NCBI GenBank assembly: GCA_944391855.1
Contig: CALXVB010000001.1
Span: 22,054 to 86,053 of the forward strand
Origin: an uncultured Clostridia bacterium
Lineage (GTDB): Bacteria; Bacillota; Clostridia; TANB77; CAG-508
Reading direction: 5' to 3'
Length of the DNA stretch: 64,000 nt
Part shown: positions 39,728-51,107 of the stretch, piece after piece
How the letters are laid out: every line of letters begins with the position of its first letter
Position numbering within the stretch: the first letter of the stretch is position 1
Program-made: the position numbers and the translations under genes
Notes under the pieces: model-generated
What the model was told of the DNA's origin: nothing
The model's database searches: none
What the model saw: only the letters and a program-made list of their open reading frames with translations

Positions 39728-40420
39728 ATGTTTAATAATAAATATAGTAAAACATTAACTGTAGTTCTTATATTAGTTATAATAATAATTATAGGTTTAC
39801 TTATATTTTTCGGAATAAGAGTATATAGAAAATATTATATAAAACAAGCTTCAAAAGAGGTAATAGAAGAACTTAAAGATAAGGCAAATCAAATAAATGA
39901 CACTACTGAAGATAGTAACTCAATTCTAAATGATGTACAACCAAGTGTGGATTTAAATACATTATATCAAAATAGTACAAACAATGATTCAAACGAATCA
40001 GGAGATTGGGAATATATGGGATATGATGTAATAGGATACATAGAAATACCTAAAACAGATGTTGAATATCTAATTATACCAGATTACCAAAGTAGTATAA
40101 ATGCATTAAATGTAGGAATAGTAATGCTTTATCCAAGTAATATCGGATTAAATGAACCTGGTAACACAGTTTTAGCAGGACATAACTATAGAGATGGTAG
40201 CTTCTTCTCAAATAATAAAAGATTACAAGAAGGAGACAAAATTTATATAACAGATACTTCAGGTGAAAGAGTAGAATATGAGATATATAAAAAATATGAA
40301 ACAAGCACAAGCGATTCTTCATATATGAATAGAGATACAGAAGGAAGAAGAGAAATATCATTAACAACATGTACAGATGATACAAGTGGAAGATTAATTA
40401 TATGGGCAAAAGAAGTATAA
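39728..40420 (+). CDS. sortase
   Basis: 230 residues. An N-terminal anchor (TLTVVLILVIIIIIGLLIFFGI) precedes an extracellular sortase fold: IGYIEIPKTDVEYLIIP, catalytic His in VLAGHNYRDGSFFS, catalytic Cys in SLTTCTDDTSGRLIIWAKE with the Arg of the triad. The class is uncertain (B or D-like). It covalently attaches surface proteins; two candidates with IPQTG signals lie at 51235-54018. Start 39728 is chosen for the AGGGAGG at 39714-39720; an in-frame ATG at 39701 lacks an RBS. Confidence 0.9.
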   Translation: MFNNKYSKTLTVVLILVIIIIIGLLIFFGIRVYRKYYIKQASKEVIEELKDKANQINDTTEDSNSILNDVQPSVDLNTLYQNSTNNDSNESGDWEYMGYDVIGYIEIPKTDVEYLIIPDYQSSINALNVGIVMLYPSNIGLNEPGNTVLAGHNYRDGSFFSNNKRLQEGDKIYITDTSGERVEYEIYKKYETSTSDSSYMNRDTEGRREISLTTCTDDTSGRLIIWAKEV

Positions 40421-40452
40421 AATATCTTAATTAAATGAAATAAAATTTTAAA

Positions 40453-40490
40453 GTTGCAATGTATTATTTACAATACATTGCAACAAAATA
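40453..40490 (+). terminator. Rho-independent terminator of sortase gene
   Basis: GTTGCAATGTATT (40453-40465) pairs perfectly with AATACATTGCAAC (40472-40484). Confidence 0.8.
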
Positions 40491-40501
40491 CTAAAAAACA
40501 G

Positions 40502-40530
40502 TTGACAAATATATTTATATGGGGTAAAAT
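40502..40530 (+). promoter_or_regulatory. strong promoter for tRNA-His (and originally tRNA-Gln)
   Basis: TTGACA (40502-40507), 17-base spacer, TAAAAT (40525-40530), 32 bases before the tRNA. Confidence 0.85.
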
Positions 40531-40562
40531 AATATCTGCAGTTGCATTTTTATATATTATAT

Positions 40563-40640
40563 GGTGGATGTAGCGCAGTTGGTTAGAGCGCCAGTTTGTG
40601 GCACTGGAGGCCGTGGGTTCGAGTCCCATCTTCCACCCCA
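40563..40640 (+). tRNA. tRNA-His (anticodon GTG), CCA encoded
   Basis: Cloverleaf with the extra 5' G pairing with C73, D-stem GCGC/GCGC, anticodon stem CCAGT/ACTGG around TTGTGGC, T-arm GTGGG-TTCGAGT-CCCAT, acceptor GTGGATG/CTTCCAC (one U-U mismatch), and CCA. Confidence 0.95.
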
Positions 40641-40688
40641 TAAATAAATTCCATTAACTAGAAAAATGCTTGCATAAATAAAATATAT

Positions 40689-40728
40689 TGGGCTGTAGCC
40701 AAGCGGTAAGGCACCAGACTTTGACTCT
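40689..40728 (+). pseudogene. 5' half of split host tRNA-Gln (attL)
   Basis: TGGGCTGTAGCCAAGCGGTA then AGGCACCAGACTTTGACTCT is the acceptor 5' strand, D-arm and anticodon loop (TTG) of a tRNA-Gln. The sequence then leaves tRNA. Joined to 51073-51107 it makes a perfect tRNA-Gln (anticodon stem CCAGA/TCTGG). Confidence 0.92.
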
Positions 40729-40763
40729 TTAACGGTTTAAAGTTATTCCAAACTCGCAAAAAC

Positions 40764-40793
40764 TTGACATATATAGAGTTTGAATGATATACT
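40764..40793 (+). promoter_or_regulatory. promoter of element-borne tRNA-Gln
   Basis: TTGACA (40764-40769), 18-base spacer, TATACT (40788-40793), inside the element and about 80 bases before the complete tRNA-Gln. Confidence 0.7.
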
Positions 40794-40810
40794 ATTTTTG
40801 AAATTTGCCA

Positions 40811-40832
40811 ATGTCAAACAGAATGTCAAACA
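40811..40832. repeat. ATGTCAAACA direct repeats, left end (candidate integrase arm sites)
   Basis: ATGTCAAACA at 40811-40820 and 40823-40832. Similar pairs occur near the other end (50900-50920). Confidence 0.6.
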
Positions 40833-40873
40833 AACTCATCATAAAACAAATTTTTAAATTTAATATTAAACAT

Positions 40874-40948
40874 TGGGCTGTAGCCAAGTGGTAAGGCATA
40901 TGACTTTGACTCATACATGCGCTAGTTCGAATCTAGCCAGCCCAGCCA
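40874..40948 (+). tRNA. tRNA-Gln (anticodon TTG), complete, carried by the element
   Basis: Full cloverleaf: acceptor TGGGCTG/CAGCCCA, D-stem GCC/GGC, anticodon stem TATGA/TCATA around CTTTGAC, T-arm GCTAG-TTCGAAT-CTAGC, CCA encoded. It differs from the host gene in the anticodon stem, so it is not a duplicate of it. It contains the att core GACTTTGACTC. Confidence 0.95.
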
Positions 40949-41017
40949 ATTTAAAAGAATTATCTGTATAAACTTATTTTCGAGAGTGGGTTTAAATATG
41001 ATAATTTTTTTATTTTA

Positions 41018-41842
41018 TCAAAGAGTAATTGCTTCTGATAAAACATTTGCAGAAATATTTTTTGTGTTACTTTCTAAATGTGTATATAAATTAGCAGTAG
41101 TAGAATAGGTAGAATGACCTAGCCACTCTTGTATTGCTTTCATAGGAACATTTTTTGCTAATAATAAACTAGCACAGGAATGTCTTAAATCGTGAAAACG
41201 AATATGTCTTAAATTCTGCTTTTTTAGTAGTAATGAAAAATGGTCAGTTATATACTCTGGTCTAAATATTTTGCCAACACTATCTACAAAAATATAATCT
41301 TTATATTCTTTTATATAACTATTTCCACATAATTTTTTATTGTTTTCAATTTTCTTCTTGTGTTCAAGTAAAGCCTCTTTAATTTCTGGAATTAAAGGTA
41401 AAGACCTATAACTTGATTTGTTTTTAGTTTTATCTTTTAAGAGCAATGTTCGTTTATCATCTACAATAGCCTCAATGACTTTGTGTTTAATTACTATTGT
41501 ATTGTTAGTAAAGTCAAAAGCAGACCATTTTAAACCTAAAACTTCACTTCTTCTTAATCCATAAAAACTTGCGATTAGTATTACTAATTCTAATGGATCA
41601 TTTTTAGATTTTTCAAAAAGTAATTGTAATTCTTCTAAAGTATAGTGGTCGCCAATAAATTGATTTTTCTTTGGTCTTTCAATTTTATCAGCAGGATTAG
41701 TAGGAATAATATCCAGTTTCATTGCAGTATCTAAAGCTTTTCTTATATTGGCATGATAATGTAATATAGAATTTCCATTTAATCCTTTTGCATATAAAGA
41801 GTCATAGAATTTTTGTATATGAACAGGTTTTAAATCTTTCAA
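41018..41842 (-). CDS. tyrosine integrase, C-terminal catalytic part (frameshifted)
   Basis: 274 residues. Part of the core-binding domain (LKPVHIQKFYDSLYAKGLNGNS) and the complete catalytic domain: Arg in YGLRRSEVLGLKW, HDLRHSCASLL, GHSTYSTT and nucleophile Tyr in ANLYTHL. The N-terminal domains are encoded 1 base upstream in another frame (41844-42191). The gene lies next to attL with its 3' end toward it, as in Tn916/ICE-type elements. Expression would need frameshifting or internal initiation; no RBS is visible at the ATG. Confidence 0.88.
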   Translation of the reverse strand: MKDLKPVHIQKFYDSLYAKGLNGNSILHYHANIRKALDTAMKLDIIPTNPADKIERPKKNQFIGDHYTLEELQLLFEKSKNDPLELVILIASFYGLRRSEVLGLKWSAFDFTNNTIVIKHKVIEAIVDDKRTLLLKDKTKNKSSYRSLPLIPEIKEALLEHKKKIENNKKLCGNSYIKEYKDYIFVDSVGKIFRPEYITDHFSLLLKKQNLRHIRFHDLRHSCASLLLAKNVPMKAIQEWLGHSTYSTTANLYTHLESNTKNISANVLSEAITL

Positions 41843-41843
41843 T

Positions 41844-42191
41844 TTAATATTTTTTCCGTTTAAAAAACTCTGTTGTTTTGGTAACTACAGTCTTATAAGA
41901 ATTATAGGTATTTTCTTCAATTCTATGCTTATATGATTCTAGCCACTCATTCAGATATACTTCAAAATATTTTTCTGCCTCATCAGTTTCAAAAGTAGAT
42001 TCTGTTGGTAAATAGTCTTTATAATTTTGTTTAATTTCGTCTAACTTTTGATTTGCTAGTCTTTTGTTATTCCCTTTTTCTGTAATTCCTGTAGGAATCC
42101 ATTTTTGTTTTCTTTTGTTGTTACTATCTCTGTAACTTAAAATAACATAGTATAAACCATGTTGTATAAATAGGTTTGCTGTTATATTCAT
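41844..42191 (-). CDS. tyrosine integrase, N-terminal DNA-binding part (frameshifted)
   Basis: 115 residues. An AP2-like arm-binding domain (GLYYVILSYRDSNNKRKQKWIPTGI) and the start of the SAM-like core-binding domain (YFEVYLNEWLESYKHRIEENTYNSYKTVVTKTTEFFKRKKY-stop). At the junction the mRNA reads CGG AAA AAA TAT TAA. Removing one A from the A6 run gives FKRKNIKLKDLKPVH, which joins the two parts smoothly. RBS AAAGGAG. Confidence 0.85.
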   Translation of the reverse strand: MNITANLFIQHGLYYVILSYRDSNNKRKQKWIPTGITEKGNNKRLANQKLDEIKQNYKDYLPTESTFETDEAEKYFEVYLNEWLESYKHRIEENTYNSYKTVVTKTTEFFKRKKY

Positions 42192-42278
42192 AAATACTCC
42201 TTTCTTTTCATAACAACTAAAATTAACCTACTTATTGATATCATAACTATAATACCATGAAAGTAAATTAAAATCTAG

Positions 42279-42491
42279 TTATATTTCATTTTGATTTGTT
42301 AAATAGGCGATAACATTTCTTTTTGGTATTTTATATTCTCTACCAACTTTTAAGGCTTGAATGGTATTATTTTTTACTAATCTGTATGCAAGTGTAATAC
42401 CAATACCAAGCATTTCTTTTAATTGTTTGATATCTACTAAATCTGGATATGAAGTAAACATCATTTGATAATTTTCTTTAATAGTACCCAT
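42279..42491 (-). CDS. excisionase-like / helix-turn-helix protein
   Basis: 70 residues from the ATG at 42491, preceded by AGGAGG with 9-base spacing. The winged HTH of the Xis/MerR-like group is visible: DIKQLKEMLGIGITLAYRLVKNNTIQALKVGREYKIPKRNVIAYL. Genes of this type next to integrases direct excision. A longer reading from 42521 overlaps the RBS and is not supported. Confidence 0.82.
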   Translation of the reverse strand: MGTIKENYQMMFTSYPDLVDIKQLKEMLGIGITLAYRLVKNNTIQALKVGREYKIPKRNVIAYLTNQNEI

Positions 42492-42561
42492 ATTGTAAGT
42501 CCTCCTTTCTCTAAAATTCACAATAAAAAAGACCTATTAAGTAATCTTAATAAAAGTCCTG

Positions 42562-43029
42562 TTAATAACTATAAACATATCTATTTTTATATTTTTGTGT
42601 TGGAACTTTGATATTCATATTTATTGATTTTGGAACATCAGATCCAACTTTTAATTTTTTATCTATTACTAAAATTCCTTTGCTATTTGTATGATAAGCA
42701 CTTGAGTTCCATTTTGCAAAAGCATAGTCTGACATATTATTAGTAGTATAAGATAATTCTATTGCATCTTGTTTTTGCTGTGCTATCATTTGCTCATAAC
42801 TGTTGTCATCTTTCTTTGGTCTGTCATAAGTTTTAAAATATTCTTGTAAATAAACTTTTCTATTTTCTGCATTTGTCTTTTTACGAGTTTCCTTTTCTTG
42901 TTTGTTTCTATTGTCAGCTTTTACAACTTTTGAAATATAAGGACAGCTTTTTCCAACTATTTTAGCAATTTCATTTTGTTTTAGATGTTGATTATAATAT
43001 AAGTCTAAAATCTGTTCTTTAGTATTCAA
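42562..43029 (-). CDS. HTH DNA-binding protein of the element
   Basis: 155 residues. N-terminal helix-turn-helix (EQILDLYYNQHLKQNEIAKIVGKSCPYISKVVKA) of sigma-like/ParB-like type, then a basic helical linker (NRNKQEKETRKKTNAENRK) and an uncharacterised C-terminal part. It is divergently transcribed from 43246, with an operator-like palindrome in its own promoter. It could regulate element genes. RBS AGGAGG. Confidence 0.72.
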   Translation of the reverse strand: MNTKEQILDLYYNQHLKQNEIAKIVGKSCPYISKVVKADNRNKQEKETRKKTNAENRKVYLQEYFKTYDRPKKDDNSYEQMIAQQKQDAIELSYTTNNMSDYAFAKWNSSAYHTNSKGILVIDKKLKVGSDVPKSINMNIKVPTQKYKNRYVYSY

Positions 43030-43139
43030 TTATTTTTCATCCTCCTTAGGTTAATTTTTTGTTTGCAAGTTTTTAAATACAATTCGCCTATTGACATTTG
43101 TTATTAATTGTTGTATGATTATATTGTAAAAAATCTTAC

Positions 43140-43187
43140 ATAACAATTTCATATTGTTATTATATAATTATATTTTACATTTGTCAA
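43140..43187 (-). promoter_or_regulatory. promoter with overlapping palindromic operator
   Basis: Minus-strand TTGACA (43187-43182), 17-base spacer, TATAAT (43164-43159). The perfect palindrome ATAACAAT-TTCAT-ATTGTTAT (43140-43160) overlaps the -10 end and start site. Confidence 0.65.
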
Positions 43188-43245
43188 TACAATTTTAAAT
43201 ATTTTATTGAAATTTTTTACATAAATTTAATTGGAGGAATAAAAA

Positions 43246-44346
43246 ATGAGAGAATTACCTCGCCATTTAGTATTAAAAGACTTTTATATGTGGTTTAATA
43301 TTAAGGAAAAAGAAGAATATTATTCAACACCACTATACTTATATGGAGTAAAAAGAATTGAGAAGAATAAAGATGAAACTAGACAATATTTAGAGTTAGA
43401 AAAAGATATATCTAAAATAAAATTTAATAATAAGAAAGAAATTCGTAAACAACCATCTACTATATATATTCATTATGCAGAAAGTATAGGAATGATATTA
43501 ATAAGACTATTAAATGCTGATTTTTCAACTTTTGAAAGTGCATATAATACTTTTCTATATGCTTATGGTTTTGAACTTATAAGAGAAGATGAACATTATT
43601 TAGAATCAAAAGAGCCTTTATCAGATAAAGAATTTTTAAAATTACTAGAAGATATATATAATGACTATTTAGAAATACTATTAGAAATACAAGCAGAATT
43701 TAAAAGATGTGTTGATTTTGTTTATAATTTAAATGGAAACGAAGAATTAAGAGCAAGTAATACATATTCAAAATTTGTTGCATATACAATTAAAAATGAT
43801 ATCTATACATATTCACAAGATATTGAAATCATTTTAGATAACTATATAAACATACATAATCATAATAGCCAAGAAACGATGGAAAATTTAATAAAAAGAA
43901 TTGATGATAGAGATCCTAATTTAGAATTGCATAATGTTTATACAAGTACAAAATTAAGAAGTATTGGTTTTGCAGTATTAGAGCAGTTAGTAAAGCAAGA
44001 AAACTTGCCGATTAAAACTTGTCAAATTTGTGGTAGATACTTTATTCCAACTTTTAGACAAAACGAAATCTATTGTGATTTGGAAAATGTCGATGGTAGC
44101 CCAACATGTAGAGAAAAAGGAGCAAGCGAAACATATAAGAAAAATTTGGAAAATATACCTGCATTATTATTATACAGAAGAACATATCAACAAAAAGTTA
44201 TGACTGTATATAGAAATAAAGAAAATAAACAGTTAAAGAAAGATTTTGATAAATGGAAAAAAGAAGCACAAGAAAAAATTAAATTGTTTAAAAAAGGTCA
44301 ATTAGATGAAGATACTTTGTATAACTGGATGATGGAAAATAAATAA
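43246..44346 (+). CDS. zinc-finger protein (DUF6076-like), mobile-element cargo
   Basis: 366 residues. The large helical N-terminal region begins MRELPRHLVLKDFYMWFNIKEKEEYYSTPLYLYGV. The C-terminal treble-clef-like finger is CQICGRYFIPTFRQNEIYCDL ... CREKGA, then a helix-rich tail. This layout is like DUF6076/CGNR-type proteins common in Firmicutes mobile elements. Function unknown; nucleic acid binding is likely. RBS GGAGGA. Confidence 0.7.
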   Translation: MRELPRHLVLKDFYMWFNIKEKEEYYSTPLYLYGVKRIEKNKDETRQYLELEKDISKIKFNNKKEIRKQPSTIYIHYAESIGMILIRLLNADFSTFESAYNTFLYAYGFELIREDEHYLESKEPLSDKEFLKLLEDIYNDYLEILLEIQAEFKRCVDFVYNLNGNEELRASNTYSKFVAYTIKNDIYTYSQDIEIILDNYINIHNHNSQETMENLIKRIDDRDPNLELHNVYTSTKLRSIGFAVLEQLVKQENLPIKTCQICGRYFIPTFRQNEIYCDLENVDGSPTCREKGASETYKKNLENIPALLLYRRTYQQKVMTVYRNKENKQLKKDFDKWKKEAQEKIKLFKKGQLDEDTLYNWMMENK

Positions 44347-44436
44347 AATATGGATAAGTAAAAATATTATCAATAATATGTAGTAAAATTTTGACTTTAA
44401 TGTTATAATAATATTAATTTAGAAAGGATGGTATAA

Positions 44437-44838
44437 GTGGATAATATAAATTTAATGGAATATTGGTTAAATAGTAGTGAAGAAGATTATAATGTAATGA
44501 AATATTTATATAGTGGAAAGAAAAATAGTTATTGTTTATTTTTAGGACATTTAGTCATAGAAAAATTATTAAAAGGATTATATGCCAAAAATAACGAAGA
44601 AAACCCATATACAATAAAATCTCATAACTTATTGGCACTTGCTGAAAAATGTAATTTAGATTTAACTGATGAGCAAGTCGAAAAGTTACAAATAATTACA
44701 CAATTCAATATAAGTGCAAGATATGATGATTACAAAGAATCATTTAATCGAAAATGCACAGATGAATATACATCTGAACAAATAAAAAATATAGAGGAGG
44801 TACGAACATGGTTGAAAAGTCTATTAACAGCGGAATAA
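44437..44838 (+). CDS. HEPN domain protein (toxin-like partner)
   Basis: 133 residues, four-helix HEPN fold: EYWLNSSEEDYNVMKYLY, SYCLFLGHLVIEKLLKGLYAKN, SHNLLALAEKC, QFNISARYDDYKESF. HEPN/MNT pairs are toxin-antitoxin systems in which HEPN is an RNase. The canonical R-x4-6-H catalytic motif is not visible here; the ISARYDDY motif is present. The start is GTG with AAAGGA upstream. It overlaps the nucleotidyltransferase gene by 31 bases, so the two are translationally coupled. Confidence 0.85.
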   Translation: MDNINLMEYWLNSSEEDYNVMKYLYSGKKNSYCLFLGHLVIEKLLKGLYAKNNEENPYTIKSHNLLALAEKCNLDLTDEQVEKLQIITQFNISARYDDYKESFNRKCTDEYTSEQIKNIEEVRTWLKSLLTAE

Positions 44839-45128
44839 TGGAATCTATACAAAAATATATAGAAAAAATCAGTCAATACTATAAAATAGAAGCAATTATA
44901 TTGTTTGGTTCTTATGCAAAAGGAACAGAAAATGAAGATAGTGATATTGATATAGCTATAATTTCAAGTGATTTTAATGATATTATTGAAGATGGAGCAA
45001 AATTAATTGGGTTGACTTGGAAAATAGATACTAGAATAGAGCCACACCCAATAACAACAGAAGATTATGAAAAAGTTTCAAATCCTTTTGTAAAGGAAGT
45101 AATGAATACGGGAATTAAAGTAGCATGA
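44808..45128 (+). CDS. MNT nucleotidyltransferase (antitoxin-like partner)
   Basis: 106 residues. Minimal nucleotidyltransferase with IILFGSYAKGTENEDSDIDIAII, the GSx9DxD motif. MNT antitoxins AMPylate their HEPN partner at a tyrosine. RBS GAGGAGG (44794-44800) is inside the HEPN gene. A strong terminator follows, closing the two-gene operon. Confidence 0.88.
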   Translation: MVEKSINSGIMESIQKYIEKISQYYKIEAIILFGSYAKGTENEDSDIDIAIISSDFNDIIEDGAKLIGLTWKIDTRIEPHPITTEDYEKVSNPFVKEVMNTGIKVA

Positions 45129-45141
45129 GTAATTTATTCAC

Positions 45142-45176
45142 TTTCCTATGAGAATCCTTCTCATAGGAAATTTTTG
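45142..45176 (+). terminator. Rho-independent terminator of HEPN/MNT operon
   Basis: TTTCCTATGAGA (45142-45153) pairs with TCTCATAGGAAA (45159-45170), then TTTTT. Confidence 0.9.
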
Positions 45177-45295
45177 TTATATTAAGCTATTTTAAGGCCA
45201 ATATTGGTAATTCGTTGATAAATAGGAAACTTTATGATAATATATGAAAAGAAATGTAAAAAAATGAGCAATAATTTTAAAGGGAGAAAATTATA

Positions 45296-47020
45296 ATGAG
45301 ATGGGTACTAAAATTCATAAAAGAATATAATTTTAAATATTGGATTGCAAATATTATGATAGTATTAGGTGGGGGAATTTCAAAAGTTTTTCCAGTTATA
45401 TTATTAGGAGAAATAATAGATAAAGGGATATACCAAAATAATTTTTCAAGTATTCCATATATGTTTATTACATCTATAAGTATGTATTTTATAGGAAGAA
45501 TGCTAACTTATTTTGGAATATTAATAATAGATAATGTTAGATTCAAGCTAGCACATAAATTAAAAGTTGAATGTTATAAAAAATTAAATGAATTAGACCA
45601 ATTATTCTATCAAGAAAATTCTCTAGGAGAGTTAAATACACGATTGACAACTGATGTCAATATTATTCATCACAATGTGTGTTTTGTGATAAAACAATCT
45701 ATGAGTATGTTAACAACTAGTATTTTAGCTATAATATATTGTTTATATATTAATCCTATTTTAACATTAATTATTCTAATTCCAACACCTATAATTGCAT
45801 TTATTTCTAGTAAGCATATTAAAAATTCTAAAAATTTATATACAGAGCAAAGAGAAAGCTTATCTGATTTAAATAGCTATATACAAGAAAATATAGAAGG
45901 AAATAGATTGGTAAAAACCTTTGGAACTGAACAAAAAGAAATAGATGAGTTTAAAACAAAAAATAGAAAAGTAAAAAATAAAAATATGAATATTCAAAAT
46001 GTTAATATTGATTATAACAATAAAGTAACTTTCTTATCTTACTGTATGCAACTCTTATTAGTTATATTTGGTGGAATATTTGTAATAGAAGGTAATACAA
46101 CAATAGGAGAATTTATTATTATTAATTCTTTTATAAGCACTATAAAAAGACCTTTTATAGAATTGAGTGGATTTATAAACGAGTGGCAACAATTTAAAGT
46201 ATCTGTATCTAAAGTGAGAAAACTATTAGAAACAGAACCTAAAATTAAAAACATAGGAAATCTAGAATTGGATAATTGGAATGATATTACATTTGACAAT
46301 GTGTCTGCAAAATATGAAAATAAACAAGTTGTTAAAAACATTAATCTAAACTTTAAGCCAAATAAAACATATGCTTTTATTGGAGAAATTGGAAGTGGAA
46401 AATCTACTATAGGAAAATTATTATTAAGATTAGTAGAAACCTCAAATGGTAAAATTACAATTAATGGAATTCCAATATATGATTATACTTTAGAATCTTT
46501 AAGAAAAAATATTGGTTATGTGTCTCAAACACCATTTTTATTTTCAGATACTATTGCAAATAATGTTTCCTTTGGAAATGAGAATTTAACAAAAGAAGAA
46601 ATTATAAATTATTTAGAATTAGTGAAAGCTGATTATGTGTTTAATTTGCCATATAATATTGATACAATTATTGGAGAAAATGGGGTAAGTTTATCTGGAG
46701 GAGAAAAGCAAAGACTTTCTTTGGCAAGAGCTATTGCAAAGAAACCAAGTATTTTAATTTTAGATGATATAACTTCAGCACTGGATTTTGAAACAGAATT
46801 AGATGTAACCAATAATATTAACAATATGAAATATGAATGTACCAAAATTATTATTGCCCAAAAAATTCTTTCTGTAAAAAATGCAGATACCATTTTTGTT
46901 ATGAGTAATGGAAAGATTGCAGAATGTGGTTCACATGGAGAATTATTACAAAAAAATGGAATATATAAAGAAATTTATGATATTCAAACAAATAGTATGG
47001 AGGAATGCATATGGAAGTAA
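45296..47020 (+). CDS. ABC exporter half-transporter, degenerate ATPase site
   Basis: 574 residues. A six-helix type-1 exporter domain (WIANIMIVLGGGISKVFPVILLGEIIDKG onward) precedes an ATPase: Walker A GEIGSGKST, signature LSGGEKQRLSLARA, Walker B ILILDDITSALD with Asp in place of the catalytic Glu, and Gln in place of the H-loop His (IIIAQKI). That is the pattern of the degenerate partner in heterodimeric exporters such as BmrCD. It overlaps the next gene by 10 bases. Substrate unknown (drug or peptide). Confidence 0.93.
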   Translation: MRWVLKFIKEYNFKYWIANIMIVLGGGISKVFPVILLGEIIDKGIYQNNFSSIPYMFITSISMYFIGRMLTYFGILIIDNVRFKLAHKLKVECYKKLNELDQLFYQENSLGELNTRLTTDVNIIHHNVCFVIKQSMSMLTTSILAIIYCLYINPILTLIILIPTPIIAFISSKHIKNSKNLYTEQRESLSDLNSYIQENIEGNRLVKTFGTEQKEIDEFKTKNRKVKNKNMNIQNVNIDYNNKVTFLSYCMQLLLVIFGGIFVIEGNTTIGEFIIINSFISTIKRPFIELSGFINEWQQFKVSVSKVRKLLETEPKIKNIGNLELDNWNDITFDNVSAKYENKQVVKNINLNFKPNKTYAFIGEIGSGKSTIGKLLLRLVETSNGKITINGIPIYDYTLESLRKNIGYVSQTPFLFSDTIANNVSFGNENLTKEEIINYLELVKADYVFNLPYNIDTIIGENGVSLSGGEKQRLSLARAIAKKPSILILDDITSALDFETELDVTNNINNMKYECTKIIIAQKILSVKNADTIFVMSNGKIAECGSHGELLQKNGIYKEIYDIQTNSMEECIWK

Positions 47021-48780
47021 ATAAATATGATCAAGATGAAAAAAACACATCATTTAGTTTTTCTAATTATAAAAGAGGATTAGAGTATATAAAAAAGTAT
47101 AAAGCTAAATTATTTATTGTATTTATTTTAAACTGTATATCAGTAATTACTACCTTATTTATTACTAAGATGTTACAATATGTGATTGATGATGTCATTC
47201 CTAGTAGCAATTATGAAAAGCTATTTATTATGATATTAATAGCATTCTTATTAGTATTGGTATCAATTATTTTAACAAAAGCTTATTCAAAAATATTGGC
47301 ACAAGTAAATCAAAATATTGTAGAAGATATAAAGAATGATTTATTTTCTCATATTCAATATTTATCGTTTAATTATTATGATACAAGGCCTCACGGAAAA
47401 ATACTAGTTAGGTTAACAGAATATGCAGAAGATGTATCTACTTTAATTACAGATAAATTAGTAACAACATTTTTAAACATATTTAATATGCTTATAATTT
47501 TAGTATTTATGTTTTTGACTAATGTTAAACTAACATTAATTGCAATAATAGGAATTATAGTACTTAGCTTAATATTTGCAATAACTGCTAGAATAAAAAG
47601 AAATTATAAATTATTAATAAATAACAAAAATTCTAATCTTAATGCATATCTAGTGGAAAGTTTAAAAGGAATGCAAACAACTCAAAGTTTTAATAGAGAA
47701 GAAAAGAATCAAAAAATATTTAATAAATTAAGTAAAGACTGGAGAGATGCTAGTTGTAAGTGTATAAAGTTTGGTAATATAGGTTGGTGTAGTGTTCAAA
47801 TAATGTCCCACTTTGTATCTGCAACAATTTATTTTGTAGGAGCTTTTGTATTGTATCCAACTGTATCTGTAGGAGTTATTGTTGCTATGGGAAGTTATTC
47901 TTCTAATTTTTGGCAACCAATAGAAGATTTATTTAAAACATTAGATGAATTTATTAATTCTATTACATATCTAGAAAGAATATTTGAAACAATGGATGAA
48001 GAAATAGAAATTAAAGATGTAGAAAATGCAATTGATATCAACTTAGAAGGGTTAATAGAATTTAAGAATGTAACATTTTCTTATATAGATAATAGAAAAG
48101 TTTTAGATAATATATCTTTCAAAGTAAAACCACAAGAAAAGGTAGCTATTGTTGGAGAAACAGGAAGTGGAAAAACTACTATTACTAATTTAATTGGTAG
48201 ATTTTATGATATTGATAGTGGCAAGATTTTGATTGATGGAAAAGATATTAAAAATTTAAAACTAAACAGCATTAGGAAACAAATTGCTATAATGCAACAA
48301 GAAAATTATTTGTTTAGTACAAGCATTATGAAGAATTTAAAATATGGTACAGATAATATAACAGATGAAGAAGTTATAGAAATATGCAAAAAATTAAATG
48401 TACATAACTGGATAATGACTCTAGAAAATGGTTATAATACGAAGTTAAGTAACAATGGAAAAAATCTATCTGATGGAGAAAGACAAGTATTATGCTATAT
48501 TAGAACAATTATTAATAATCCTAAAATACTAATCTTTGATGAAGCAACAAGTAAGATTGATATAAAAACTGAAAAGATGCTTCAAAATCTAACAAAGGAA
48601 ATGATAAAAAATAAAACATTAGTTACAATTGCACATAGGTTATCTACTATAGTAGATAGTGATAGAATACTATTTGTTAAGGATAAGAAAATAGTAGAAT
48701 GTGGAACTCATAAAGAATTAATGCAATTAAGAGGTAACTATTATAATTTATATATGAGTCAAGCAGAAACACTTAATTAA
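47011..48780 (+). CDS. ABC exporter half-transporter, consensus catalytic site
   Basis: 589 residues. The transmembrane domain (LFIVFILNCISVITTLFITKML) is followed by an ATPase with Walker A GETGSGKTT, Walker B ILIFDEATSKID with catalytic Glu, and H-loop TIAHRLSTI, but a degenerate signature LSDGERQVL. This complements the previous subunit, so the two form one heterodimer with one active site. Start 47011 is chosen for GGAGG at 46999-47003 with 7-base spacing; the ATG at 47005 is too close. Confidence 0.93.
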   Translation: MEVNKYDQDEKNTSFSFSNYKRGLEYIKKYKAKLFIVFILNCISVITTLFITKMLQYVIDDVIPSSNYEKLFIMILIAFLLVLVSIILTKAYSKILAQVNQNIVEDIKNDLFSHIQYLSFNYYDTRPHGKILVRLTEYAEDVSTLITDKLVTTFLNIFNMLIILVFMFLTNVKLTLIAIIGIIVLSLIFAITARIKRNYKLLINNKNSNLNAYLVESLKGMQTTQSFNREEKNQKIFNKLSKDWRDASCKCIKFGNIGWCSVQIMSHFVSATIYFVGAFVLYPTVSVGVIVAMGSYSSNFWQPIEDLFKTLDEFINSITYLERIFETMDEEIEIKDVENAIDINLEGLIEFKNVTFSYIDNRKVLDNISFKVKPQEKVAIVGETGSGKTTITNLIGRFYDIDSGKILIDGKDIKNLKLNSIRKQIAIMQQENYLFSTSIMKNLKYGTDNITDEEVIEICKKLNVHNWIMTLENGYNTKLSNNGKNLSDGERQVLCYIRTIINNPKILIFDEATSKIDIKTEKMLQNLTKEMIKNKTLVTIAHRLSTIVDSDRILFVKDKKIVECGTHKELMQLRGNYYNLYMSQAETLN

Positions 48781-48797
48781 TTAAATACATATAAATA

Positions 48798-48849
48798 TAT
48801 AGGAACATCTCAAGAGTATAAAAAAATTATGAGATGTTCCTATAAAAAT
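48798..48849. terminator. bidirectional terminator between exporter and relaxase
   Basis: TATAGGAACATCTCA (48798-48812) pairs perfectly with TGAGATGTTCCTATA (48830-48844). It is A-rich on one side and A/T-rich on the other, between convergent genes. Confidence 0.8.
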
Positions 48850-48869
48850 TTGGTCAATATATTAAGGGA

Positions 48870-50114
48870 TTATCTTTCTAAATCCCACTCTTTTTCTAAT
48901 TCTTCATGTTCTAATTGTTTTACTGGATCAATAAAAGTATTAGTTTGTTTTTCAAAATCCTTAATTAATTGTTTTGATTCTCCAATACCAAATCTATGAC
49001 AAACCCAATCTATAAATTTTTCAACCGTTTCATAAAATTTATCAATGATCTTGTGTAGATGGCTATTTTCTTTTTCTAAAGACTTAATCTTACTTTTATA
49101 TTTATATTCAATATCAAATTCCTTATTTTTAAATTCTTTTTCTAGTTCATTTTTTCTATTTTTATAATCAAAATCTAAATTATTGCTTTTCTTTTTATAT
49201 TCATGTTCTAAATGCCTTACAGTACTGTGCAATTCTTCATTGTCAGCAAGTATTGAATTTCTTTCTTTTTGGTACATTTCAGCCTCATCAATAATTTTTG
49301 ATTGTTTTGACAATTCCTTATGCAAAGCCAAATTATCTTTATATAATTCTTGTATTAGTTCATCTTTTGGCCTTATAATTTCATTTTCTACTTTTTCTCT
49401 ATTAAGTTTAATTAATTTAATGTCATTTATATCTGGAATTTCTGGCAACTCTAATTTTATACTATCTAATACTTTTTTAGTATTTTCAAAATTAGTTATT
49501 TTCTTTAAATCTTCTATTTTTTGATGTTTTGATCCTGTTTCTTCTACTGGTAGACCTCTTTCTAAATCAAAACCCTTTGATGTTATATATTCGTGAAAAG
49601 CATTTTGCAATTTTCTATAACTATCTTTACCTCTCCAAAAATCTCTTGCACAGATTTTGTCTATTGGATTTCCTTTTTCATCTTTTGTATGAATTACAGG
49701 TGTATATACCAAGTGCATATGTGGTGTTGTTTCATCTAAATGTACTGCTGCTGATACTATATATTTCTCTCCAAGATTTTTGTAATTACATACAAACTTA
49801 TAACTTTCTTTGAAATATCTTTTTGTTTCTTCTATTCCAATTTTATCAAAAAACTCATTATCAGATGTAATCATCATTTCACACATTATAATGCTATTAC
49901 TTCTAATATGACCTTGTAAATTATATTCTTTTTTCATTTTATCAAATTCTTTTATATATGTTAGTTCATTTTTCTTACAGTAAAAATTTAAATGTGTTCT
50001 TGTGGGATCAATATCTTTATTAGAATGACCTTTTGACCTTCTATCATTGTGAATGTGTGACCCCTGTGCATCAACTCTTGTTAATTTATCATTTCTTATA
50101 ATGGCATAGCTCAT
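48870..50114 (-). CDS. MobV/Pre-family relaxase
   Basis: 414 residues. The N-terminal Mob_Pre domain begins MSYAIIRNDKLTRVDAQGSHIHNDR, includes NFYCKKNELTYIKEF, and has the metal-binding motif AAVHLDETTPHMHLVYTP. A long coiled-coil tail (LHKELSKQSKIIDEAEMYQKERN ... YKYKSKIKSLEKENSHLHK) follows. It nicks oriT and leads DNA transfer in trans of a helper conjugation system. Start 50114 follows AAGGAGG at 11-base spacing; a GTG further up would include the RBS in the gene. Confidence 0.92.
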   Translation of the reverse strand: MSYAIIRNDKLTRVDAQGSHIHNDRRSKGHSNKDIDPTRTHLNFYCKKNELTYIKEFDKMKKEYNLQGHIRSNSIIMCEMMITSDNEFFDKIGIEETKRYFKESYKFVCNYKNLGEKYIVSAAVHLDETTPHMHLVYTPVIHTKDEKGNPIDKICARDFWRGKDSYRKLQNAFHEYITSKGFDLERGLPVEETGSKHQKIEDLKKITNFENTKKVLDSIKLELPEIPDINDIKLIKLNREKVENEIIRPKDELIQELYKDNLALHKELSKQSKIIDEAEMYQKERNSILADNEELHSTVRHLEHEYKKKSNNLDFDYKNRKNELEKEFKNKEFDIEYKYKSKIKSLEKENSHLHKIIDKFYETVEKFIDWVCHRFGIGESKQLIKDFEKQTNTFIDPVKQLEHEELEKEWDLER

Positions 50115-50167
50115 ATTCTTCGTAGCCTCCTTTCTCACTAGAATAAATTTATTTGTCTAACATACTA

Positions 50168-50247
50168 GTCAAGCAAGCTTGACCGTATGGCAGGGTTTTA
50201 CAACCCCACACCCCAAACCTAAAAATTGCTATTTGCATTTTTAGGTT
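50168..50247. other. candidate oriT: clustered inverted repeats upstream of relaxase
   Basis: GTCAAGC-AA-GCTTGAC (50168-50183), GGGTT/AACCC (50193-50206) and AACCTAAAAATTGC/GCATTTTTAGGTT (50216-50247). Clustered inverted repeats just upstream of a relaxase gene are typical of oriT. I cannot assign the nick site. Confidence 0.5.
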
Positions 50248-50285
50248 CTTTCATAAAAAATGCATGTCGCAATTTTTATGAAAGT

Positions 50286-50760
50286 AGAGCCAAGAAAAAT
50301 AAATTTTCTTGACTCTATCACTTTAGCAACTACTAAGCAGAAACCAGAGGGAGAGAGCTAAAGTGAATTAGGTGTAATAATCCCATTTATGAAAATAGAA
50401 TTATTACACCTATATAAGCTGAAACCGTCGGTCGTTCGCCTCGTTTCATAGGTAGTCTAGTAAGTAGCTTTGCTACTATAATTGCTGATACTACTTTGTA
50501 TCTTTGTTCATACTTGCCCAAACTTTTTACAATTACAAATCCATTTCAAGTTTTGCCACCGAATACTCTTTTATTTATTGTGAGTTTTTGTTCTAAGATC
50601 TCACTTACGCACTTTGTATAATTAGACTGCTTATACAAATGCGAATGAACTTTATAGCATCGGCTCATCACACCAAACACTTTTTAAGAGGTGTTGCATT
50701 TCTCTTTTGAATATAAAAAACTACCTATAGTTTTAAAACTACAAGTAGTTAGTTTGTTTC
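50286..50760. other. hairpin-rich non-coding segment, candidate structured RNA
   Basis: No gene fits here. Stems include AGAG-CAAGAAAA/TTTTCTTG-ACTCT (50286-50316), CACTTTAGC/GCTAAAGTG (50319-50365), AGGTGTAATAAT/ATTATTACACCT (50370-50411, 12 bp perfect), AGTAGC/GCTACT (50463-50477), and a terminator-like double hairpin at 50719-50750. It may be a structured RNA or part of the transfer region; strand is uncertain. The rest, 50761-51060, holds arm-type repeats and A/T-rich sequence. Confidence 0.5.
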
Positions 50761-50899
50761 TTATTCAATTAGCCACCACAATCGAATATAAGGCGATAAT
50801 AAATTAAAATAGGGTAATTATTTATCATTGACTTTTATAATGTTTAATATTAAAATAATGATATCAATAAGTAAGATTTTGTTATGACTTTGATAAATT

Positions 50900-50920
50900 T
50901 TGTCAAACAAATGTCAAACA
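50900..50920. repeat. TGTCAAACA direct repeats, right end (candidate integrase arm sites)
   Basis: TTGTCAAACA (50900-50909) and ATGTCAAACA (50911-50920), matching the pair near the left end. Confidence 0.6.
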
Positions 50921-51060
50921 ATTTCGTTTAAAAATTTAATTTTGCGAAAGTATTGAAATTAAAATGTTTTTGAATTTTGCAACTATAAAATACTGATAAA
51001 TAGCTACTTTAAACAGCAAAGAGTAATCTTAAATAATTGTAAGTATAAAATGAAAGGTAC

Positions 51061-51107
51061 GACTTTGACTCTGGCATGCGCTAGTTCGAATCTAGCCAGC
51101 CCAACCA
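51061..51107 (+). pseudogene. 3' half of split host tRNA-Gln (attR)
   Basis: GACTTTGACTCTGGCATGCG then the T-arm CTAGTTCGAATCTAG and acceptor CAGCCCA with ACCA. Upstream sequence does not fold as a tRNA 5' half, so the gene is not restored at this end. Confidence 0.92.

Follow-up and report, generated by a model that had tools for sequence, protein, structure and literature searches.

Integrating elements often insert into transfer RNA (tRNA) genes, and the element usually rebuilds the gene that it enters. Here we analyzed a stretch of 64,000 nucleotides (the window) from an uncultured Clostridia bacterium (assembly GCA_944391855.1, contig CALXVB010000001.1, positions 22,054 to 86,053). It holds a 10.3-kb element that, judged by alignment with related genomes, is inserted in the anticodon loop of the host tRNA-Gln(TTG) gene with a 12-bp core duplicated, and that carries a complete tRNA-Gln(TTG) gene of its own. 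This exception occurs repeatedly within a single integrase family of Clostridia and Paenibacillus, also in mobilisable and conjugative elements.

The published form of the principle is the "tRNA-dependent lysogeny" of actinobacteriophages (PMC10865867). According to the accessible parts of that paper, these phages, like the element described here, use a tyrosine integrase and a short core in a tRNA gene (8–17 bp in the phage table), leave no functional tRNA at either junction, bring a tRNA of the same isotype and have close integrase relatives that reconstruct the target. The same parts propose more than one origin, and the discussion cites the Lactobacillus johnsonii prophage Lj965 as a case outside Actinobacteria and raises the question of prevalence. 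The carriers there are phages that infect mainly Mycobacterium and Gordonia and target Lys-TTT, Ile2-CAT and Leu-CAA; deletion and plasmid tests demonstrated that they need the tRNA, whereas here this need is inferred. In a Sinorhizobium prophage a foreign tRNA gene substitutes for that of the host, which its authors, in the sections available, likened to tRNA-dependent lysogeny (PMC11476347); unlike the mobilisable element here, that case concerns prophages of Alphaproteobacteria. For other Sinorhizobium prophages, a second paper states that this feature is missing. In contrast to tRNA-dependent lysogeny, our carriers are relaxase-bearing elements of Clostridia and Paenibacillus, and their targets are Gln, Ser, Phe and further Leu tRNAs.

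In tycheposons the border tRNA is reportedly the restored target, unlike here. As the excerpt of PMC10872708 describes them, they share with our element a tRNA at the border and a tyrosine recombinase. Known integrative mobilisable and conjugative elements of tRNA genes likewise have a tyrosine integrase, a tRNA target and a relaxase; in the available part of a review, a direct repeat of these elements includes one end of the target, which leaves the tRNA gene undisrupted (PMC5704250). Here, unlike in those elements, the target is disrupted and replaced. No report of tRNA replacement by conjugative or mobilisable elements was found in titles and the starts of abstracts, a search that covered few subscription papers. 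What looks new is the use of replacement by such elements, the range of tRNAs and the repeated switching with ordinary restoration of the 3′ end. Such borders would be misplaced by methods that look for a restored tRNA and a displaced fragment to mark islands.

The window comes from a metagenome-type assembly of 1.38 Mb in 57 contigs, 85% complete. A host tRNA-His gene (40564–40640, forward strand, ARAGORN) precedes the severed 5′ half of the host tRNA-Gln(TTG) gene (40689–40728, forward), which ends with the left core copy at 40717–40728. The right core copy (51061–51072) starts the severed 3′ half (51061–51107, forward). The two halves, when joined, gave an intact tRNA-Gln(ttg) in ARAGORN. 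We compared 56 genomes from the genus, family and order for an empty site. Nine same-genus genomes have the joined host sequence without interruption, at 100% identity over 70 bases. In genome G017, the window flanks (left to 40728, right from 51061) aligned around one intact tRNA-Gln with a 12-base overlap, and this overlap is the short core inside the host gene. Since the flanks meet at one uninterrupted locus with this overlap, the element entered that tRNA-Gln at its anticodon loop. A first reading made from the letters alone (the sequence-only reading) had proposed a split at the anticodon with element ends at 40717 and 51072; the alignment and the joined halves place the ends at exactly these positions.

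A canonical restoring island brings along the 3′ end of its target and with it rebuilds the gene at one junction. Neither junction of this element rebuilds a functional tRNA-Gln, as had also been claimed: the left core at 40717 in its present context gave no tRNA call, and the host 5′ half followed by the 3′ part of the element's own tRNA gene at 40874 gave a product called tRNA-Lys by ARAGORN. In related loci (L013–L041), a single tRNA-Gln followed tRNA-His in 29 of 29 cases, at a distance of 10–103 nucleotides. None of these is the 40874 gene, whose best match among them was 96%. The sequence-only reading had named, as a refuting case, strains without the element that have the 40874 tRNA at this locus; these loci give no such case.

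An assembly artefact that united unrelated pieces is scarcely conceivable. Metagenome-type assembly and the poor assembly of repeated tRNA halves would favor such an error, but both flanks are collinear with G017, and L160 and L161, which come from other assemblies, share the left end of the element. Moreover, the layout occurs in isolate genomes, for example at L225 and L197, where a single contig has both halves.

The element-borne tRNA-Gln(TTG) is complete (40874–40948, forward, ARAGORN) and scored 69 bits with RF00005, third best among 21 tRNA matches in the assembly. The target is broken at both junctions and a complete tRNA of the same type is aboard, and to this extent the idea of a broken tRNA-Gln with a replacement is borne out. 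The element's gene was the only full-length match to the 40874 tRNA in the window's assembly, and no second complete tRNA-Gln(TTG) gene was found; the sequence-only reading had asked for a genome-wide count, and this one has the scope of an 85%-complete assembly in 57 contigs. A 75% match to tRNA-Gln over bases 1–59 on contig 4 is presumably tRNA-Gln(CTG). Among 30 same-genus genomes, 23 (the window's included) had a full-length match, one each except for two in G014; G011 and G005 had the 3′ part only, and five had no match at E 1e-6. At L047 (G011 contig 7) and L048 (G005 contig 37), the right end of another element is joined to a tRNA-Gln(TTG) 3′ half, which is mutated at L048. No full-length Gln(TTG) match was found in the G011 or G005 assemblies.

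The replacement gene had been credited with its own promoter, and this part stands only in so far as the site exists. TTGACA-N18-TATACT lies at 40764–40793 (forward), with 11 of 12 positions matching and TG ahead of the second hexamer, and its hexamers recur in the element of a relative, L160, and not in L161. Promoter-like sites are not clearly enriched as a class, with 6 in 40400–41020 versus 3.7 (standard deviation 1.7) in shuffled sequences, and by itself the site is no proof. The same scan detected no terminator-like site. Expression of the element tRNA from its own promoter and by read-through from tRNA-His are both conceivable.

Integrase-driven insertion into the anticodon loop with replacement of the tRNA is the best explanation of this locus, and we hold it with good confidence. 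The tyrosine integrase would recombine at the 12-bp core in the anticodon loop of tRNA-Gln(TTG). The attachment site has the core alone, without a matching tRNA 3′ half, and the host gene is thereby cut in two. The complete tRNA-Gln(TTG) just past the left arm sites would then take over. Matching of the core only would let such elements enter hosts with different tRNA stems.

To survey related loci, the C-terminal part of the integrase was used as a query against 390 family genomes, drawn evenly from a larger group; 134 of the 390 matched at E 1e-30 or better. The first set had 90 loci, of which 30 were given by the integrase search and 60 came from the top of the remaining matches. The second set consisted of the best 80 of 586 confirmed relatives in named genomes. 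All fractions below are valid for these two sampled sets. A tRNA was sought within 400 nucleotides of the integrase stop. In the first set, 28 loci had a severed 5′ half and a complete tRNA, 32 had a complete tRNA without a half and 30 had no tRNA; the corresponding numbers in the second set were 49, 13 and 18. When loci without a tRNA were set aside and identical left ends counted once, 114 distinct integrase-proximal ends bearing a tRNA remained. Replacement ends, with a severed half and a separate complete tRNA, made up 74 of them, and 40 were other ends.

Seven isoacceptors were hit across the 74 replacement ends: Ser(CGA) in 25, Leu(CAA) in 19, Leu(TAA) in 11, Phe(GAA) in 10, Gln(CTG) in 5, Gln(TTG) in 3 and Leu(CAG) in 1. 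Carriers include Paenibacillus dendritiformis G25-126 (L180), Clostridium puniceum DSM 2619 (L189), Lachnoanaerobaculum sp. OBRC5-5 (L225) and Caproicibacter fermentans EA1 (L227). The detector of severed halves found none in 109 shuffled upstream stretches and none in 66 stretches upstream of other tRNAs at the same loci. Severed halves were at least 80% identical to a template in 73 of 74 ends. Among the 40 other ends, five had less than 200 nucleotides of left flank, and one of these, L119, is probably a replacement end clipped by the contig edge.

With templates of 28 isoacceptors, the isotype of the half was that of the complete tRNA in 74 of 74 ends. The anticodon column of our script agreed in 69 of 74. 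In L059, L060, L061 and L064 the CTG halves were read out of register, as the printed letters show. L062 has a weak (74%) Gln(TTG)-type half beside a Gln(CTG) element tRNA and is the sole anticodon mismatch of the 74. The tRNA might instead be a passenger that serves codon supply or counters tRNA-cutting defences, its likeness to the target being coincidental. Phages carry tRNAs for such reasons, as noted in the accessible text of PMC10865867, but the full agreement in isotype, with 28 isoacceptors allowed, makes this hardly plausible. A tryout for a tRNA of another isotype in the replacement layout gave 0 of 74, looking only between the half and the integrase.

Relaxase families were found in the elements of L073, L070, L225, L197 and L098. 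With a coupling protein, TrbL and a TraG-type ATPase in addition, L225 is a conjugative element. L112 has a replication protein and L116 a primase-helicase type protein, and these two could also suit satellites. In the relatives, selected open reading frames were scanned for protein families. Two viral contigs, L240 and L288, of 80 loci from viral collections have a candidate half and a complete tRNA, of Leu(TAA) and Val(CAC) type. Seventy phage records matched the window integrase, all at less than 60% identity.

Replacement ends and ends with an intact tRNA occur side by side in this integrase family. The closest integrases of the first set (86–88% identical) include L054 and L055, which lie beside an intact tRNA-Gln without a half, and L166, with a 95% identical integrase, is also of the intact-tRNA type. 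The intact-type genomes G413 and G414 each have a second 3′ half at a distance of about 10 kb, as restoration predicts. A tree of 102 ends, which leaves out 11 unclear ends and one short row, had at least nine changes between the two modes, several branches being weak; raw labels on 167 rows gave 19 changes.

We compared the geometry of both types of ends. Two TGTCAAACA repeats at the left end (40812–40832, forward) are probable integrase arm sites, 92 nucleotides from the host anticodon as in relatives, and two more at the right end (50901–50920, forward) are probable arm sites as well; the repeat pattern was picked by eye. The distance from the anticodon to the first arm was 92–93 nucleotides in eight of eight Gln replacement ends. 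In intact-type Gln(TTG) ends it was 92–94 in five of six and 60 in the other. The 19 Leu(CAA) replacement ends had 93–94 in 12, 86–91 in three and no arm in four. By this spacing, the Gln elements keep the attachment geometry, and the complete tRNA lies beyond the arms.

These data bear on an alternative in which an ordinary restoring element ends at the core inside the 40874 tRNA, and 40689–40873 is debris of an older insertion. It would suit the close integrase relatives beside an intact tRNA-Gln without a half (L054, L055, L063 and L166), the arm-like pairs on both sides of the L160 tRNA and the ladders of debris at other sites. However, the 3′ half at the right end rejoins properly only with the outer 5′ half, the anticodon stem of the 40874 gene being a misfit, and on this ground accretion with canonical restoration was rejected. 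In addition, the stretch from core to tRNA recurs in L160 and L161 at the 92–93 nucleotide spacing, and left ends that are nearly the same, tRNA included, occur in different host alleles. We consider this alternative improbable.

The arm pairs that flank the L160 tRNA hint that left ends may have been exchanged by recombination inside the tRNA gene. L166 has a duplicated stretch with a broken tRNA-Gln 5′ start to the left of its intact gene. At L104, a decayed tRNA-Phe-like 3′ part lies between the arm-like repeats and the integrase, and is perhaps a relic of a former restoring end.

Restoration requires that an element 3′ half fit the host 5′ half, and we examined the pairing of such chimeras. 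The acceptor columns of Gln were out of register in our stem-pairing scripts, so only anticodon stems were used for Gln. At least two mispairs appeared in the anticodon stem in eight of eight Gln loci, and at least two extra stem mispairs in 46 of 66 non-Gln chimeras. Between L071 and L072, identity is 98.6% for the left ends and 97.6% for the integrases, but only 79% for the host 5′ halves. Near-identical ends beside such divergent halves imply that the tRNA travels with the element and that a match to the host is needed only around the core. Freedom from stem matching may be what selects the replacement layout.

Far ends were sought in 23 replacement loci with DNA on the integrase side, window apart. 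A fitting 3′ half was found in 15 of these; it follows a distant core and, when joined to the host 5′ half, gives a tRNA of the right kind. Nine far ends lie at 7.4–17.4 kb, measured from inside the integrase, and those of L105, L098, L116 and L197 at 7.5–19.8 kb from the left core. The far 3′ half of L225 is 40 kb off, and that of L189 is on another contig.

Two genomes have ladders of severed halves. The complete tRNA of Caproicibacter fermentans (L227) is preceded by two severed 5′ halves whose left ends are similar, and OttesenSCG-928-K08 (L215) has two clear severed 5′ halves and a weaker third. Most simply read, later elements inserted themselves into the replacement tRNA that earlier ones had brought; the ladders speak for serial replacement. 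The sequence-only reading had suggested that the replacement, which contains the core, could itself become a target; the 5′ halves fit this, but the matching right-hand halves were not found, and the nested halves predicted for a ladder were absent from 25 kb of the OttesenSCG contig (G425).

Several observations weigh against replacement as we describe it. The arm spacing is not one constant, as intact-type Leu(TAA), Leu(TAG) and Tyr ends mostly have 106–118 nucleotides, and most replacement ends of Phe, Leu(TAA) and Ser(CGA) lack the arm pattern. Eight of the 66 non-Gln chimeras have no extra mispair, and ARAGORN accepted 45 of 74 chimeras of host 5′ and element 3′ halves as the same tRNA, Gln rows being unreliable in this count; restoration would therefore have worked in some. 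The right end was not found in eight of the 23 loci (L104, L062, L064, L101, L071, L160, L227 and L215); L101 has an 83% BLAST match to a 3′ half on the same contig. Most survey genomes are incomplete metagenome assemblies, in which a second tRNA copy may have been missed. The integrase of the window copy reads in two frames. Finally, a host with an isoacceptor whose anticodon starts with T can probably do without Gln(CTG), Leu(CAA), Leu(CAG) and Ser(CGA), and the substitute need not be essential in such a host.

With these points in mind, we lean, by a small measure, towards a wider view of conjugative and mobilisable elements of Bacillota. Replacement of tRNAs would be general among them and repeatedly evolved, would free them from host stems, and would allow core-bearing tRNAs to be retargeted and host isoacceptors to be serially overwritten. 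If serial replacement is true, such elements are a steady source of tRNA gene turnover, including the indispensable Gln(TTG), Phe(GAA) and Leu(TAA). Should cells need the substitutes, they rely on mobile DNA for a tRNA that is essential.

How far hosts depend on the substitute was assessed from gene content. tRNA-Phe(GAA) is normally the sole Phe tRNA. In five of ten Phe carriers (G391, G075, G404, G208 and G005), both host halves are on one contig and the element gene was the only complete tRNA-Phe found. G011 had one complete gene and no 3′ half, and G076 and G385 had one complete gene and a partial match elsewhere. G368 had a second full-length match, and G088 had pieces of another copy at contig edges. 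Each of the three Gln(TTG) carriers (G000, G410 and G411) had one complete gene at more than 90% identity, that of the element; their weaker matches of 74–75% are presumably Gln(CTG). In Clostridium puniceum, the only complete Leu(CAA) match was the element's gene; this gene would not be needed if Leu(TAA) also reads UUG. The substitute is presumably expressed and charged, and the cell may depend on it.

The sequence-only reading had likened the element to an addiction system, in which loss of the element kills the cell for want of its tRNA. Gln(TTG) is required for reading CAA, and the element gene was the only complete Gln(TTG) found in the assembly, as addiction would have it. However, the host halves rejoin into a perfect native gene, and precise excision of the element should therefore do the cell no harm. 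Excision would be harmful with a mutated 3′ half, but such a half adjoins a different element in G005 and not the one in the window. True addiction is thus highly improbable and the label is too strong. The tie to the host would hold only against loss or decay of the substitute, imprecise deletion, or an element unable to excise, a case to which the two-frame integrase of the window copy is relevant.

The remaining genes define the type of element. The tyrosine integrase (41018–42191, reverse strand; Pfam Phage_integrase and SAM-like domains) occupies two frames with a break near 41843. The same break is present in the G024 copy (L049), which makes a sequencing slip unlikely. A programmed frameshift was considered and rejected, as the frames, judged by eye, fit no standard slippery site; a plain frame break is assumed. 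Next to it are an HTH_17 protein (42279–42521, reverse; Pfam), which by size and place may be excisionase-like, and a protein without a Pfam family (42562–43029, reverse), which has weak PHROG matches and similar open reading frames beside related integrases. A Mob_Pre (MobV) relaxase is encoded at 48870–50138 (reverse; Pfam 9.6e-40), with plasmid MobV relaxases at less than 60% identity. The element has an integrase and a relaxase and no conjugation machinery of its own, as an integrative and mobilisable element does. No structural phage family was found among nine element open reading frames scanned with PHROGs. From this gene content, the element is best called an integrative and mobilisable element and not a temperate phage.

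Between the integrase region and the relaxase lie a DUF6076 protein (43246–44346, forward; Pfam), a HEPN and nucleotidyltransferase pair (44437–45128, forward; Pfam HEPN and NTP_transf_2), which is probable toxin-antitoxin cargo, and two ABC half-transporters as further cargo (45296–48780, forward; Pfam ABC_membrane and ABC_tran). The nucleotidyltransferase of the pair matches the candidate defence models PDC-S09 and PDC-M05A.

L049 (G024 contig 9, 1–9740) is a copy of window 41480–50797 at 99.45% identity with different ends. On its left, at the contig edge, are a truncated integrase and a tRNA-Gln whose anticodon stem is the native one. Its right end has a tRNA-Leu 3′ half, and the 5′ counterpart seems by eye to be the half beside integrase L066 of G024. 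Cargo seems to be exchanged between elements of different targets.

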